DNA from: Tieghemostelium lacteum
Lineage: Eukaryota; Evosea; Eumycetozoa; Dictyosteliales; Raperosteliaceae
DNA: 64,000 bases
Direction of reading: 5' to 3'
Assembly (NCBI GenBank): GCA_001606155.1
Contig: LODT01000039.1
Span: 248,001 to 312,000 of the forward strand
Of the stretch, positions 45,177-51,178 are shown one piece after another. The notes beneath the pieces were generated by a model, which worked only from the letters and a program-made list of their open reading frames with translations, was not told where the DNA came from and made no database searches. Each line of letters starts with the position of its first letter. Position 1 is the stretch's first letter. A program made the translations under genes and the position numbers.

Positions 45177-45524
45177 AAAAAATAGCCATGGATAATATCA
45201 GAATTTAAAATTAAATGAACAAATCAATTCTTTTGTTAGATATCATATGATCATCTATCCAAAGTTCACTTCAAACTACTGGCGATTGTTTGATTAACAA
45301 GGTTAATACTAACTATTCCCCAATCATCAGACTAATAGTTGAAAGAATGGTGAGATGTGTATAAGAATAATTAGAAAATTTCTGTCTATGAAGTCTATTG
45401 AACCTTTGGCCAGTATGGAAGTTGGAAATTTCAATGGATGCATAATCTTACATGAGGTTGTAAATAAGTTTTATGCATGTAAAACCAATCATAAAAAAAT
45501 ATCTTTTAAATTGTGTTGTTGGAC

Positions 45525-45576
45525 AGAACTCGGTTTTTTCAATGAGTGGAGTTGATTTAATTGCTGTAAGAGTTCT
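45525..45576 (-). ncRNA. Class I-like small ncRNA, copy 1
   Basis: A 52-nt unit. The 5' end AGAACT (45576-45571) pairs perfectly with the 3' end AGTTCT (45530-45525). The 11-mer TCTTACAGCAA follows the 5' arm at once (45572-45562). This is the plan of dictyostelid Class I RNAs: 42-65 nt, short terminal stem, and a conserved 11-nt motif next to the 5' stem, CCTTACAGCAA in D. discoideum, so one mismatch here. The box AACCATAA lies 60 bases upstream (45643-45636 on this strand). The second copy shares the stem, the motif, TTAAAT after the motif and CGAGTTCTGTC at the end. The agreement of stem, motif, length and promoter makes chance unlikely. Confidence 0.85.
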
Positions 45577-45635
45577 TGTTCAAAATTTCAATTTGAAAAG
45601 TAATTAAAAATTAAATTAAATTTAGTCAATACACA

Positions 45636-45643
45636 TTATGGTT
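45636..45643 (-). promoter_or_regulatory. DUSE-like box for copy 1
   Basis: On the minus strand it reads AACCATAA, matching 7 of 8 positions of the Dictyostelium upstream sequence element (A/T)CCCA(C/T)AA. It ends 60 bases before the 5' end of the ncRNA; about 63 is usual for this element. The identical octamer serves copy 2. Confidence 0.7.
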
Positions 45644-45703
45644 GTTCACTTTATTTAAAAATAAAAATAATACAGAAAATTGAGAAAAATTAAATAATGA
45701 CCA

Positions 45704-45711
45704 AACCATAA
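45704..45711 (+). promoter_or_regulatory. DUSE-like box for copy 2
   Basis: AACCATAA, identical to the box of copy 1, ends 61 bases before the 5' end of the second ncRNA. Both boxes carry A instead of C at position 2 of the known consensus, so this species or this gene pair may use a variant element. Confidence 0.7.
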
Positions 45712-45771
45712 ACATATATTTGACTTTTACTTTTGGAAAATTTGATCAATTTGAAAATTGATTATTAATTG

Positions 45772-45824
45772 AGAACTTCTTACAGCAAATTAAATTCAAT
45801 TGTTACTGAAAACCTTCGAGTTCT
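45772..45824 (+). ncRNA. Class I-like small ncRNA, copy 2
   Basis: A 53-nt unit with the same design as copy 1. AGAACT (45772-45777) pairs with AGTTCT (45819-45824), and TCTTACAGCAA (45778-45788) follows the 5' arm. The variable middle is A/T-rich. Downstream, GTCAATTAATAATCC leads into a run of 12 T (from 45839), which could end Pol III transcription. Copy 1 is also followed by a T run after GTCC. In D. discoideum these RNAs are abundant, cytoplasmic and regulated during development, but their mechanism is not settled. The two genes are divergent, with 195 bases between their 5' ends. Confidence 0.85.
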
Positions 45825-46074
45825 GTCAATTAATAATCCTTTTTTTTTTTGAATATCCAATCAAATGAATGTTATTCATTAATTCATTTGTTAGGAAAGT
45901 TAGATTCTTTCCTGTTTCTTATTAAATATAATGGTGTGTTACGTTGATAAGAGTTTGAATAACAACAATGTATATTTTAAAATTTAAAAAACTGATATTT
46001 GAATATGAAAATTTTAAATCAATTTTTTTTTTTGTAGATTTATTCATTACTCGAGAGAGAAGAAATTAACAAAA

Positions 46075-49030: not shown

Positions 49031-51178
49031 TTATAGATTGGACATATTCTTTGGTTGAATTTGGTATCGTTCAAGGTTTTCAGTTGGTAGATATCTTTCA
49101 TTGAAGGTGTCAGGTATATGGAATGTATTTCTAATGATGGGATGGTTTTCAAAGGTCCAAATCATAGTTTTTAAAAATGGTGATTCAAATGTGTTTTTTG
49201 ATTTATATTCTTTTCTGAGAAGGAGTAATCGTAAGGTAGATGGTAAGCTAGTGATATCTTGTTGGAATTCGACACCTAATCTGAGGTTTAAGAGTTTAGA
49301 TGGGAGAATACCTTCACCTGAAATTGGTTGGTTAAATTGTTTAGAAAATGAAATGGTCTCTAAAGAATCAGGTAAAACTCCAACTGACAATGGTTGGTTA
49401 TAAGAGTGTTGGAATTCTAATCTTTTCAATGATTTTGGTAAGACATTTGGTAGTAATGGTTGATTGAAATGGTTTGGTAACTTTAGTTCCTTTAATGTCT
49501 CAGGTAGAACACCAACTTCAAGTGGTTGATTAAACTGATATATAAATACAAGTTTTTGTAGATTCTTTGGTAGTGTGTTTGGTAGTAGTGGTTGATTGAA
49601 ATGGTATCCAAGTTCCAAATCTTCTAAAGACTCTGGTAATGAGTTTGGCAGTATTGGTTGATTGAATGTGTTACCGAATTTAAGTGATTTTAATGATTGT
49701 GGAAGTACACCAATTTCAATAGATTGGTTAAAAGCAGATCCAAAAATTAGTGTTTTCAAAGTTTGTGGTAAAATACCAGGTTGTAACGGTTGATCAAAAT
49801 CATAACCAAACGATAGATAGGTCAATGAATAGAGTATTGATAAGCAACCTGGAAGAAGTGGTCTATTGAATCTACTACCAAACCACAACTCCTTTAGAGT
49901 CACTGGAAGTGCATTAGGTAACAAATCTTGATTGAACTCGTTACCCAAAAGTAATTGGGTAAGTTGAGTATTTGAAAGAACACCTACTTCTAAAGGGTTA
50001 TTAAACCCTGTTCCAGCACGAGTGGGTGCAAAAGGTTGGTAGAAATATCTATCAAAATACAGTTCCTTTAAAGATGGCGGAAATATCCCGACTGATAAAT
50101 CTTGGTTAAAGGCTCTTCCAATATGAACATATTCGATACTGGGAGGTAGTTTAGGAAGTGGGTGATTATAGACACTACCAATAACTAATTTCGTTAGTGA
50201 CTGTGGAAGTACTCCTTCTTCAATTGGACTATCAAAGTAATCACCCATATAAAAGGTCTTTAAAGATTCTGGTAGGATGTATTTACCTATGCTACCTGAT
50301 ATACCATAAACTATTTTCAGTGTCTCTAAACCCTCTGGAAAACAGTTTGCATCAAAATTGGCACCTCTATAGATCTGACATTCAAATTCCTTTAAAGACT
50401 TTGGAAAACACCATTTATTGAGTGGTAATGTGTGTTCTTGAGAACCAACGACCAATCTCTTGACATTATTCTGAAAAGTTCCTAATATCAAAGGATGATT
50501 ATGTAACTGTGATATATAAAGAGTCTCTATACTTGGTGGTAACCAATCAATTTCCTGACTGAAACTGTAAGGTAATTTAAGTGACTTTAAACCATCTGGC
50601 AATAAACCTGGAACTATTTTCTGATTGAATTCTCTAAATCTTAATTTCTCCAAAGTCTTTGGTAATTGGCCTGCTTCCAATGGATTTACGCAACGACCTA
50701 TTGTTAGTTTCTTTAAAGGTAATGTGGAAATGTCACTTGGTAGAGGTTTATCATAGTCGTATGGGAAATTGAGTGTTTGTAGTGTCTTTGGAAGTGTACC
50801 TGATGGAATTTCAACTTTGAAATTCATTGGAAGTGAAAGCTCTGTTATAGTCCTTGGAAAGAAGTTAAGAACCATATCGTCTTGGAAATTAACATTTCTC
50901 ATATCTAATATGCCATCTATATCTAGTAACTCAAGTTTCTCAACCCCCAATGAAAAGAAACTTCTAAAATGTATTGGTTTGCTCATTATAATGTTTTTAA
51001 ATTTTTTAGGAATGCTTTCAAGAGAGTAAACTTCTGAAAAGTATTCTATTGGAAATTGATGATATCTAATAGAGTCTCTTAACTTGCTATACACTTCCTT
51101 ATTGACTGAAACTAAATTTAGTATATCTACATTACTATACAAATAATATACAATTTCTTTTATAGCTTGTATATTCAT
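49031..51178 (-). CDS. FNIP-repeat protein
   Basis: 715 residues, one exon. After an N-terminal F-box-like helical segment (IYYLYSNVDILNLVSVNKEVYSKL), the protein is an array of roughly 22-residue FNIP repeats of the form LP-x-SL-x2-L-x-LG-x2-FNQPL, such as LPQSLKSLKFGNTFNQPI and LPESLEDLELGYHFNQPL. About twenty units can be counted between residues 110 and 640. FNIP proteins are hugely expanded in dictyostelids and in amoeba-infecting giant viruses, and those with an F-box probably act as SCF substrate receptors. Here the surrounding genes and spacers are ordinary host DNA. The repeats are regular and uninterrupted. Substrates are unknown. Confidence 0.93.
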   Translation of the reverse strand: MNIQAIKEIVYYLYSNVDILNLVSVNKEVYSKLRDSIRYHQFPIEYFSEVYSLESIPKKFKNIIMSKPIHFRSFFSLGVEKLELLDIDGILDMRNVNFQDDMVLNFFPRTITELSLPMNFKVEIPSGTLPKTLQTLNFPYDYDKPLPSDISTLPLKKLTIGRCVNPLEAGQLPKTLEKLRFREFNQKIVPGLLPDGLKSLKLPYSFSQEIDWLPPSIETLYISQLHNHPLILGTFQNNVKRLVVGSQEHTLPLNKWCFPKSLKEFECQIYRGANFDANCFPEGLETLKIVYGISGSIGKYILPESLKTFYMGDYFDSPIEEGVLPQSLTKLVIGSVYNHPLPKLPPSIEYVHIGRAFNQDLSVGIFPPSLKELYFDRYFYQPFAPTRAGTGFNNPLEVGVLSNTQLTQLLLGNEFNQDLLPNALPVTLKELWFGSRFNRPLLPGCLSILYSLTYLSFGYDFDQPLQPGILPQTLKTLIFGSAFNQSIEIGVLPQSLKSLKFGNTFNQPILPNSLPESLEDLELGYHFNQPLLPNTLPKNLQKLVFIYQFNQPLEVGVLPETLKELKLPNHFNQPLLPNVLPKSLKRLEFQHSYNQPLSVGVLPDSLETISFSKQFNQPISGEGILPSKLLNLRLGVEFQQDITSLPSTLRLLLLRKEYKSKNTFESPFLKTMIWTFENHPIIRNTFHIPDTFNERYLPTENLERYQIQPKNMSNL

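Follow-up and report, generated by a model that had tools for sequence, protein, structure and literature searches.

Two short RNA genes of a known family lie on opposite strands in the window, by which we mean the whole stretch of 64,000 nucleotides that was analysed, from a contig of the Tieghemostelium lacteum genome referred to below as C33. Tieghemostelium lacteum is presumably the newer genus name for D. lacteum. With Rfam release 15, both units were matched by RF01414 (Dicty_Class_I_RNA), at 45773-45825 on the plus strand (49.6 bits, E = 1.5e-6) and at 45575-45524 on the minus strand (43.4 bits, E = 5.5e-5), the E values being for 64 kb against 4227 families. Given that both scores exceed the gathering cut-off of 41.5 bits at these E values, a chance match is excluded for both units, and the pair constitutes the only two matches above the curated Rfam cut-offs in the 64-kb window. 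The initial annotation had described two units on opposite strands with a shared terminal stem and matched promoter boxes and had taken them for Class I RNA genes with DUSE promoter elements. The units are present as described, with AGAACT starting at 45772 (plus) and 45576 (minus) and with TCTTACAGCAA, TTAAAT and CGAGTTCTGTC in both, and the Class I identity is borne out by the Rfam scores, the promoter spacing, the covariation in the stem and the motif pattern across the genome. In the covariance-model search that had been proposed as a check, both units scored above the RF01414 cut-off and further copies were present in the genome.

To the left of the RNA pair are a frame with Dicty_CTDC repeats (PF00526; 42704-44092, minus strand) and a 206-aa frame without a Pfam match, and a 715-aa frame of an FNIP repeat protein (PF05725) occupies 49031-51178 on the minus strand. 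No tRNA genes were found in the 64-kb window by ARAGORN with the bacterial code.

Most Class I RNAs of groups 1-3 start 1-2 nt before a conserved G, and CUGU forms the 3' end of Class I RNAs (PMC7919456). The ends first proposed for the two units (45824 and 45525) were therefore shifted to 45826 and 45523, and with the start placed 1-2 nt ahead of the G and the end at CUGU, the expected RNA lengths are 55-56 nt (plus) and 54-55 nt (minus). The conserved G and CTGT are intact in both genes; the two bases preceding the G are AA, the form typical of the family, in the minus gene and GA in the plus gene. Both genes have T, C, C, A and A at positions 3, 6, 9, 10 and 11 of the 11-nt motif (TCTTACAGCAA), a short terminal stem of 6 pairs, and a DUSE at the usual distance of about 60 nt upstream (Table 1).

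Table 1. Positions of the two RNA genes and associated features in the window.
Feature	Position	Strand	Remarks
Class I RNA gene, plus member	45771..45826	+	RF01414; conserved G at 45773; expected RNA from 45771/45772 to CTGT at 45826; stem GAACTT/GAGTTC
Class I RNA gene, minus member	45523..45577	-	RF01414; conserved G at 45575; expected RNA from 45577/45576 to CTGT at 45523; stem GAACTC/GAGTTC
DUSE AACCATAA of plus gene	45704..45711	+	61 nt before G; octamer common to 13/17 Class I loci
DUSE AACCATAA of minus gene	45636..45643	-	60 nt before G
Spacer between the outward-facing DUSE octamers, 60 nt	45644..45703		about 90% identity to the C19 copy
11-T run after plus gene	45840..45850	+	probable RNA polymerase III terminator (putative role)
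7-T run after minus gene	45493..45499	-	probable terminator (putative role); inside 18 nt that are the same in the C19 copy
Block with a second copy on contig C19 (~78945-79336, reverse orientation)	45466..45848		local alignment with permissive gaps; core 45516-45827 at 91%

The genome (23,333,832 bases in 43 contigs) was searched for further members of the family. At least 15 RF01414 matches were obtained at E<=0.001, at least 14 of them above the cut-off, and at least 21 at E<=10, these counts being lower bounds given that 61 of 25,566 first-look candidates were scored. Among the 21 genome matches listed, CCATA ends 59-62 nt before the conserved G in 17, the window pair included. Four weak matches (C40, C42, C26 and C4w; 19.3-29.4 bits) were not counted and are probably due to chance, since CCATA was not found within 110 nt upstream of them. 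The DUSE octamer AACCATAA is present in 13 of the 17 Class I genes and the motif TCTTACAGCAA in 9 of the 17 (counted by eye among the matches listed). The departures of both elements from the D. discoideum form had been interpreted as a possible lineage-specific variant, and this holds only in the ordinary sense that both departures are common in this genome. A DUSE with two Cs has been reported for most D. lacteum and A. subglobosum genes and for all P. pallidum genes, and DlaR-1 and DlaR-5 are 61 and 54 nt long (PMC7919456); the best-scoring locus in our genome search is 61 nt long and three loci are 54 nt.

In the 64-kb window there are exactly two perfect matches to CTTACAGCAA, which are the two RNA genes. 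With one mismatch allowed the window contains 6 matches, an ordinary number given that 16 of 100 shuffles contain at least as many. The genome-wide search for promoter and RNA start that the initial annotation had suggested was unspecific in its loose form (CCATAA, 40-70 bases, AAGAAC), with 94 matches compared with 354 in the reversed control. It became specific when the motif was added: CCATA-N{64,76}-TTACAGCAA gave 13 matches and the reversed control 1, and 11 of the 13 were Class I loci.

Six terminal pairs are possible in both window RNAs, and among the 17 genes a mismatch within the six was found only in the gene C17far. Covariation was examined in 13 aligned genes out of the 17; the window minus gene, C19p, C17far and C20 were left out because their junction is shifted or their loop very long. 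In this alignment 78/78 stem cells were paired, 9 of them with both sides changed (0/500 shuffles as high on either count), and the covariation score was 0.509 compared with 0.273 in shuffles (0/500 as high). Two of the five covariation measures were unexceptional, namely double-change pairs (34/500 shuffles as high) and further pair types (157/500). The sixth pair is C-G in 7 of the 13 genes, U.G in 5 and U-A in 1. Given that its 5' base is also the first base of the 11-nt motif, the one-base difference in the motif is a change in the stem that keeps pairing.

The register of the 11-mer differs between the two window genes: in the plus gene GAACTT is followed by CTTACAGCAA, and in the minus gene GAACTC is followed by TTACAGCAA, so that the T and C of the 11-mer are stem bases there. 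The junction between stem and motif in the minus gene, as also in C19p and C17far, is thus one base shorter than the model expects, which explains why this gene is only 1.9 bits above the cut-off. Folding of the single sequences gives the terminal stem in both RNAs, at -5.0 kcal/mol for the plus RNA (z 0.61), which folds no better than its shuffles, and at -6.6 kcal/mol for the minus RNA (z -1.44), which folds weakly better.

The window pair is like the dictyostelid Class I RNAs (RF01414; DdR, DpuR, DlaR and others; Kjellin et al. 2021) in length, terminal stem and CUUACAGCAA motif, and also in the G start, the CTGT end, the DUSE about 60 nt upstream, the downstream T run and the clustering of genes, and no feature of the pair speaks against membership. 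In D. discoideum, Class I RNAs are abundant small RNAs of 42-65 nt. The stem sequence is known to vary, being GAACT(C/T) in the window, GTTGA in D. discoideum and GAATT in D. purpureum (PMC3188802, in the part seen). These are very probably two genuine Class I RNA genes of a known family, and since Class I RNAs of D. lacteum have been published both as predicted and as expressed, with observation by northern and RNA-seq (PMC7919456), the pair has very probably been catalogued already.

How the pair would work was deduced from the published features of Class I genes (PMC7919456). Transcription of each gene would be directed outward by the DUSE that lies about 60 nt before it, with RNA polymerase III as the most likely enzyme, and would end at the T run. 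After any processing, the transcript would be held by the terminal stem of about 6 bp, leaving CUUACAGCAA mostly unpaired, probably as a protein-binding site, and may take part in regulating multicellular development. According to the same article, a DUSE precedes all expressed Class I genes and high-scoring candidates without it are silent, the Class I motif is mostly unpaired, and in D. discoideum the protein Rnp1A binds DdR-21, loss of which disturbs early development, these last observations being for DdR-21 only (PMC7919456). We are highly confident in the reading as a whole, that is, a genuine head-to-head Class I pair which would be transcribed outward from its DUSE elements as far as the T runs, would yield stem-held RNAs with a developmental role, and belongs to a unit copied between C33 and C19.

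The divergent unit of the window corresponds to C19:78964-79275 in reverse orientation, with 91% identity over 317 columns. When the segments were compared separately (gap columns not counted, the boundaries of the minus DUSE being off by one base), the identities to C19 were 0.98 for the minus RNA, 0.95 for the minus promoter, 0.90 for the region between the DUSEs, 0.90 for the plus promoter and 0.96 for the plus RNA; they were 0.74 in the left flank, 0.56 in the right flank and 0.50 farther out. The idea that the duplication ends exactly at the 3' ends of the RNAs was considered and is weakened by the local alignment with permissive gaps, in which the similarity runs on to 45466-45848 and so covers the left T run and the larger part of the right. 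When three neighbouring frames of the window were compared by tblastn with the 7.5 kb surrounding the C19 pair, none gave a match at E<=0.01. Given the extent of the similarity and the unrelated neighbours, the copied piece would be roughly 310-380 bp. The unit thus appears, by sequence comparison, to have been copied once between C33 and C19; alternatively, the similarity may be what constraint has preserved of a larger and older duplication. Duplication of a head-to-head unit in this way offers a concrete route of multiplication for a family that changes fast and has been linked to multicellular development.

Another head-to-head Class I pair is located at C17:125176-125229 (minus) and 125425-125478 (plus) (L036), with RNAs 94% and promoters 47% identical. 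The distance between the two Gs is 197 nt in the window, 198 nt on C19 and 195 nt on C17, and that between the CCATA cores 64, 65 and 65 nt, respectively, where the window and C19 count as one case among the three pairs. If 17 genes were randomly placed, about 0.0006 head-to-head pairs within 200 nt would be expected (rough formula), which indicates that the pairs were made by local duplication and not by chance. A fourth close pair, on C4, is tandem; 8 of the 17 Class I genes are in close pairs and 9 are without a close partner. A constant spacing of 64-65 nt separates the cores on C33, C19 and C17, and the two outward-facing DUSE elements could form one bidirectional promoter that drives two different Class I RNAs together, the cassette being inherited as a module, an idea that we put forward tentatively and consider rather unlikely.

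The spacer of the window cassette was compared with that of C17 in the orientation in which the gene C17m corresponds to the window plus gene (z 2.76, masked 3.15) and in the other orientation (z 3.27, masked 1.44); for the C19 spacer the values were 2.21 (masked 2.52) and 2.79 (masked 1.46), respectively. At these values, shared ancestry of the window and C17 cassettes is suggested at most. The C17 spacer is not a palindrome (z -0.26), although the full cassette, RNAs included, is 67.6% identical to its reverse complement in an alignment of 349 columns. That the window pair arose by recent inverted duplication was likewise considered, but there is no clear trace of it: the window spacer gives a z of 2.19 against its own reverse complement and 1.15 with the DUSE masked.

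Among the single Class I genes, C9:121893-121953 (plus) and C31:425115-425174 (minus) (L034 and L035) share 85% identity between -90 and +95, and this duplication includes the DUSE, the RNA and the T run. A further shared piece near +184 was rejected as part of the same duplication and is explained instead by separate insertions of two subfamilies of one retroelement at different distances.

The matched features of the window genes could also be ascribed to recent gene conversion between them, as the initial annotation had suggested, since both have the identical 11-mer and DUSE octamer and since what looks like homogenisation limited to the RNA occurs in the C17 pair (C17m and C17p), in which the 58 nt preceding the G show the 47% identity given above. 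Conversion between the window genes is nevertheless not supported and in our view extremely improbable: their RNAs are 74% identical over alignment columns, which is lower than the identities of the plus RNA to C4a (0.83), C4b (0.82), C30 (0.80) and C17m (0.80) and of the minus RNA to C30 (0.80), the register of the 11-mer differs between them, and both motifs are common elsewhere in the genome. Each of the two RNAs is closer to one gene of the C19 cassette (plus to C19m 0.96, minus to C19p 0.89), in agreement with the earlier statement that they are not a fresh copy of one another. The middles of the two RNAs, which had been said to differ, are not the same but, at this 74%, partly alike. The 58 nt before the G are identical at 0.63 between the two window genes, just above the 95% level of shuffles (0.61; maximum 0.71), and a weak trace of kinship is therefore possible.

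It is very unlikely that one or both of the window genes are decayed, untranscribed Class I copies. The junction that is one base shorter, the lower score of 43.4 bits and the short T run (7 T), which begins 24 nt after the RNA, might suggest decay of the minus gene, but in both genes the stem and CTGT are intact and the DUSE is correctly spaced, the window and C19 RNAs differ in loops and not in the stem or motif, and the shifted junction, being common to the window minus gene, C19p and C17far, is an inherited form. The cassette could, in turn, be regarded as a small mobile element with the RNA 3' ends as its inverted ends (GACAGAACTC...GAGTTCTGTC), given that the high similarity between C33 and C19 starts and stops near these ends and that the neighbouring genes differ. 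This is highly improbable considering that weaker similarity continues into the terminators, that a target-site duplication was not seen by eye in the window/C19 alignment, that the whole cassette was covered by the window and C19 only among the 8 matches of the search, and that the related single genes on C9 and C31 instead share the piece from -90 to +95.

After their terminators, the genes on C9 and C31 have in common TAGCGTATTGCTA followed by an A-rich run. Genome-wide there are 13 copies of this 13-mer, compared with 0 in the reversed control. The 117-base piece after the C31 gene had 43 genome matches and the 141-base piece after the C9 gene had 8, some places being in both. A long copy of the element (L096) contains a 1165-aa frame with matches to RVT_1 (4.2e-35) and Exo_endo_phos (1e-7), that is, an APE-type endonuclease together with a reverse transcriptase; a shorter piece of the element, of 415 aa, had given no Pfam match. 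A tRNA-Trp gene is located upstream of this copy on the same strand. In 38 element loci (30 of the 43 C31-type matches and the 8 of C9 type) surveyed by ARAGORN with introns allowed, 10 tRNA genes were found, 9 of them distinct and all upstream of the element on its strand, with gaps between the end of the tRNA gene and the start of the element of 25, 48, 53, 54, 58-60, 59, 60, 74 and 142 nt. Compared with TRE3 elements, which lie 40-150 bp downstream of tRNA genes in the same orientation, the orientation agrees in 9/9 and one gap is below 40. The elements are also like TRE3 retrotransposons in the A-rich end and in the combination of endonuclease and reverse transcriptase, and TRE3-like sequences have been published for D. 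lacteum (PMC5006619, in the part seen). A difference is that Class I and U6 genes are among those followed by copies here, a location not mentioned in the parts of the TRE3 literature seen.

Tails of this kind on the same strand follow 3 of the 17 Class I genes, with gaps of 43 nt (C31), 69 nt (C9) and 53 nt (C4a) (L058, L088 and L010, respectively), the tail at C4a being a 46-nt fragment at 91%. The U6 match (L074, C24) is followed by two successive TRE3-like tails on the same strand, starting 48 and 89 nt downstream. No countable tail was present within 480 nt of the remaining 14 Class I genes, to which the window pair belongs. Short element matches at C19p (31 nt, other strand) and C2a (24 nt) were not counted as tails since they fall in a stretch of the element that gives many repeated matches. 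When 30 element loci and nine other stretches were searched with Rfam at its cut-offs, tRNAs, U6 and Class I genes were found; one U3 match about 1.4 kb away on the other strand, cut by the end of the locus, is off-pattern and probably unrelated. Random scatter of 51 copies would give 0.003 Class I genes with a same-strand copy within 150 nt downstream compared with the 3/17 observed (P about 4e-9, a rough value given that 51 is a lower bound for the copy number and that the C9 and C31 genes are related).

Given that the same element family occurs on the same side, on the same strand and at the same distance after tRNA, U6 and Class I genes, we infer that the polymerase III machinery which these elements follow is also present at Class I genes. 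It is fairly likely that they are landing sites for TRE3-like retrotransposons that target tRNA genes, as U6 and tRNA genes are, and this would mark them as true polymerase III genes. T runs are present after many of the 17 Class I genes, and such runs have been taken to suggest that Class I genes may be read by polymerase III (PMC7919456). The retroelement tails form a line of evidence separate from the T runs and make the question directly testable. A preference of the elements for the DUSE or for open chromatin, and not for polymerase III, would also place tails beside Class I genes and would fit with U6 and Class I genes having, to our knowledge, no internal B box. Such a preference is unlikely to be the explanation considering that tRNA genes, which as far as we know are not DUSE genes, are followed by the same family in the same arrangement of side, strand and distance.

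Given that the kind of gene is known and the genome has very probably been surveyed, the finding of the window pair is regarded as already known; the pair itself confirms a known family, and its surroundings matter more. The second cassette on C19 and the TRE3-like tails after three Class I genes and U6 are additions beyond the known family. In a literature search that scarcely covered subscription journals and in which most papers were judged by their listing, no account was found of duplicated Class I cassettes or of Class I genes with TRE elements beside them. The main text of PMC7919456, in the part seen, mentions clusters but nothing on the relative orientation of paired Class I genes; there was no mention of snRNA, ncRNA or class I RNA in the part of PMC5006619 seen, or of ncRNA in PMC5391098.

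Spliceosomal snRNA genes with DUSE promoters have the promoter type alone in common with Class I genes, the RNA family being different. CCATA lies 63 nt upstream of the single U6 match in the genome. Of the four U2 matches, one has CCCATAA and three have ACCTTAA, at 54-56 nt from a start position set by hand. In three of the four U2 genes (L041, L042 and L043) ACCTTAA thus replaces the CCATA core at the DUSE distance, and L041 has TTCCATAA 74 nt upstream.
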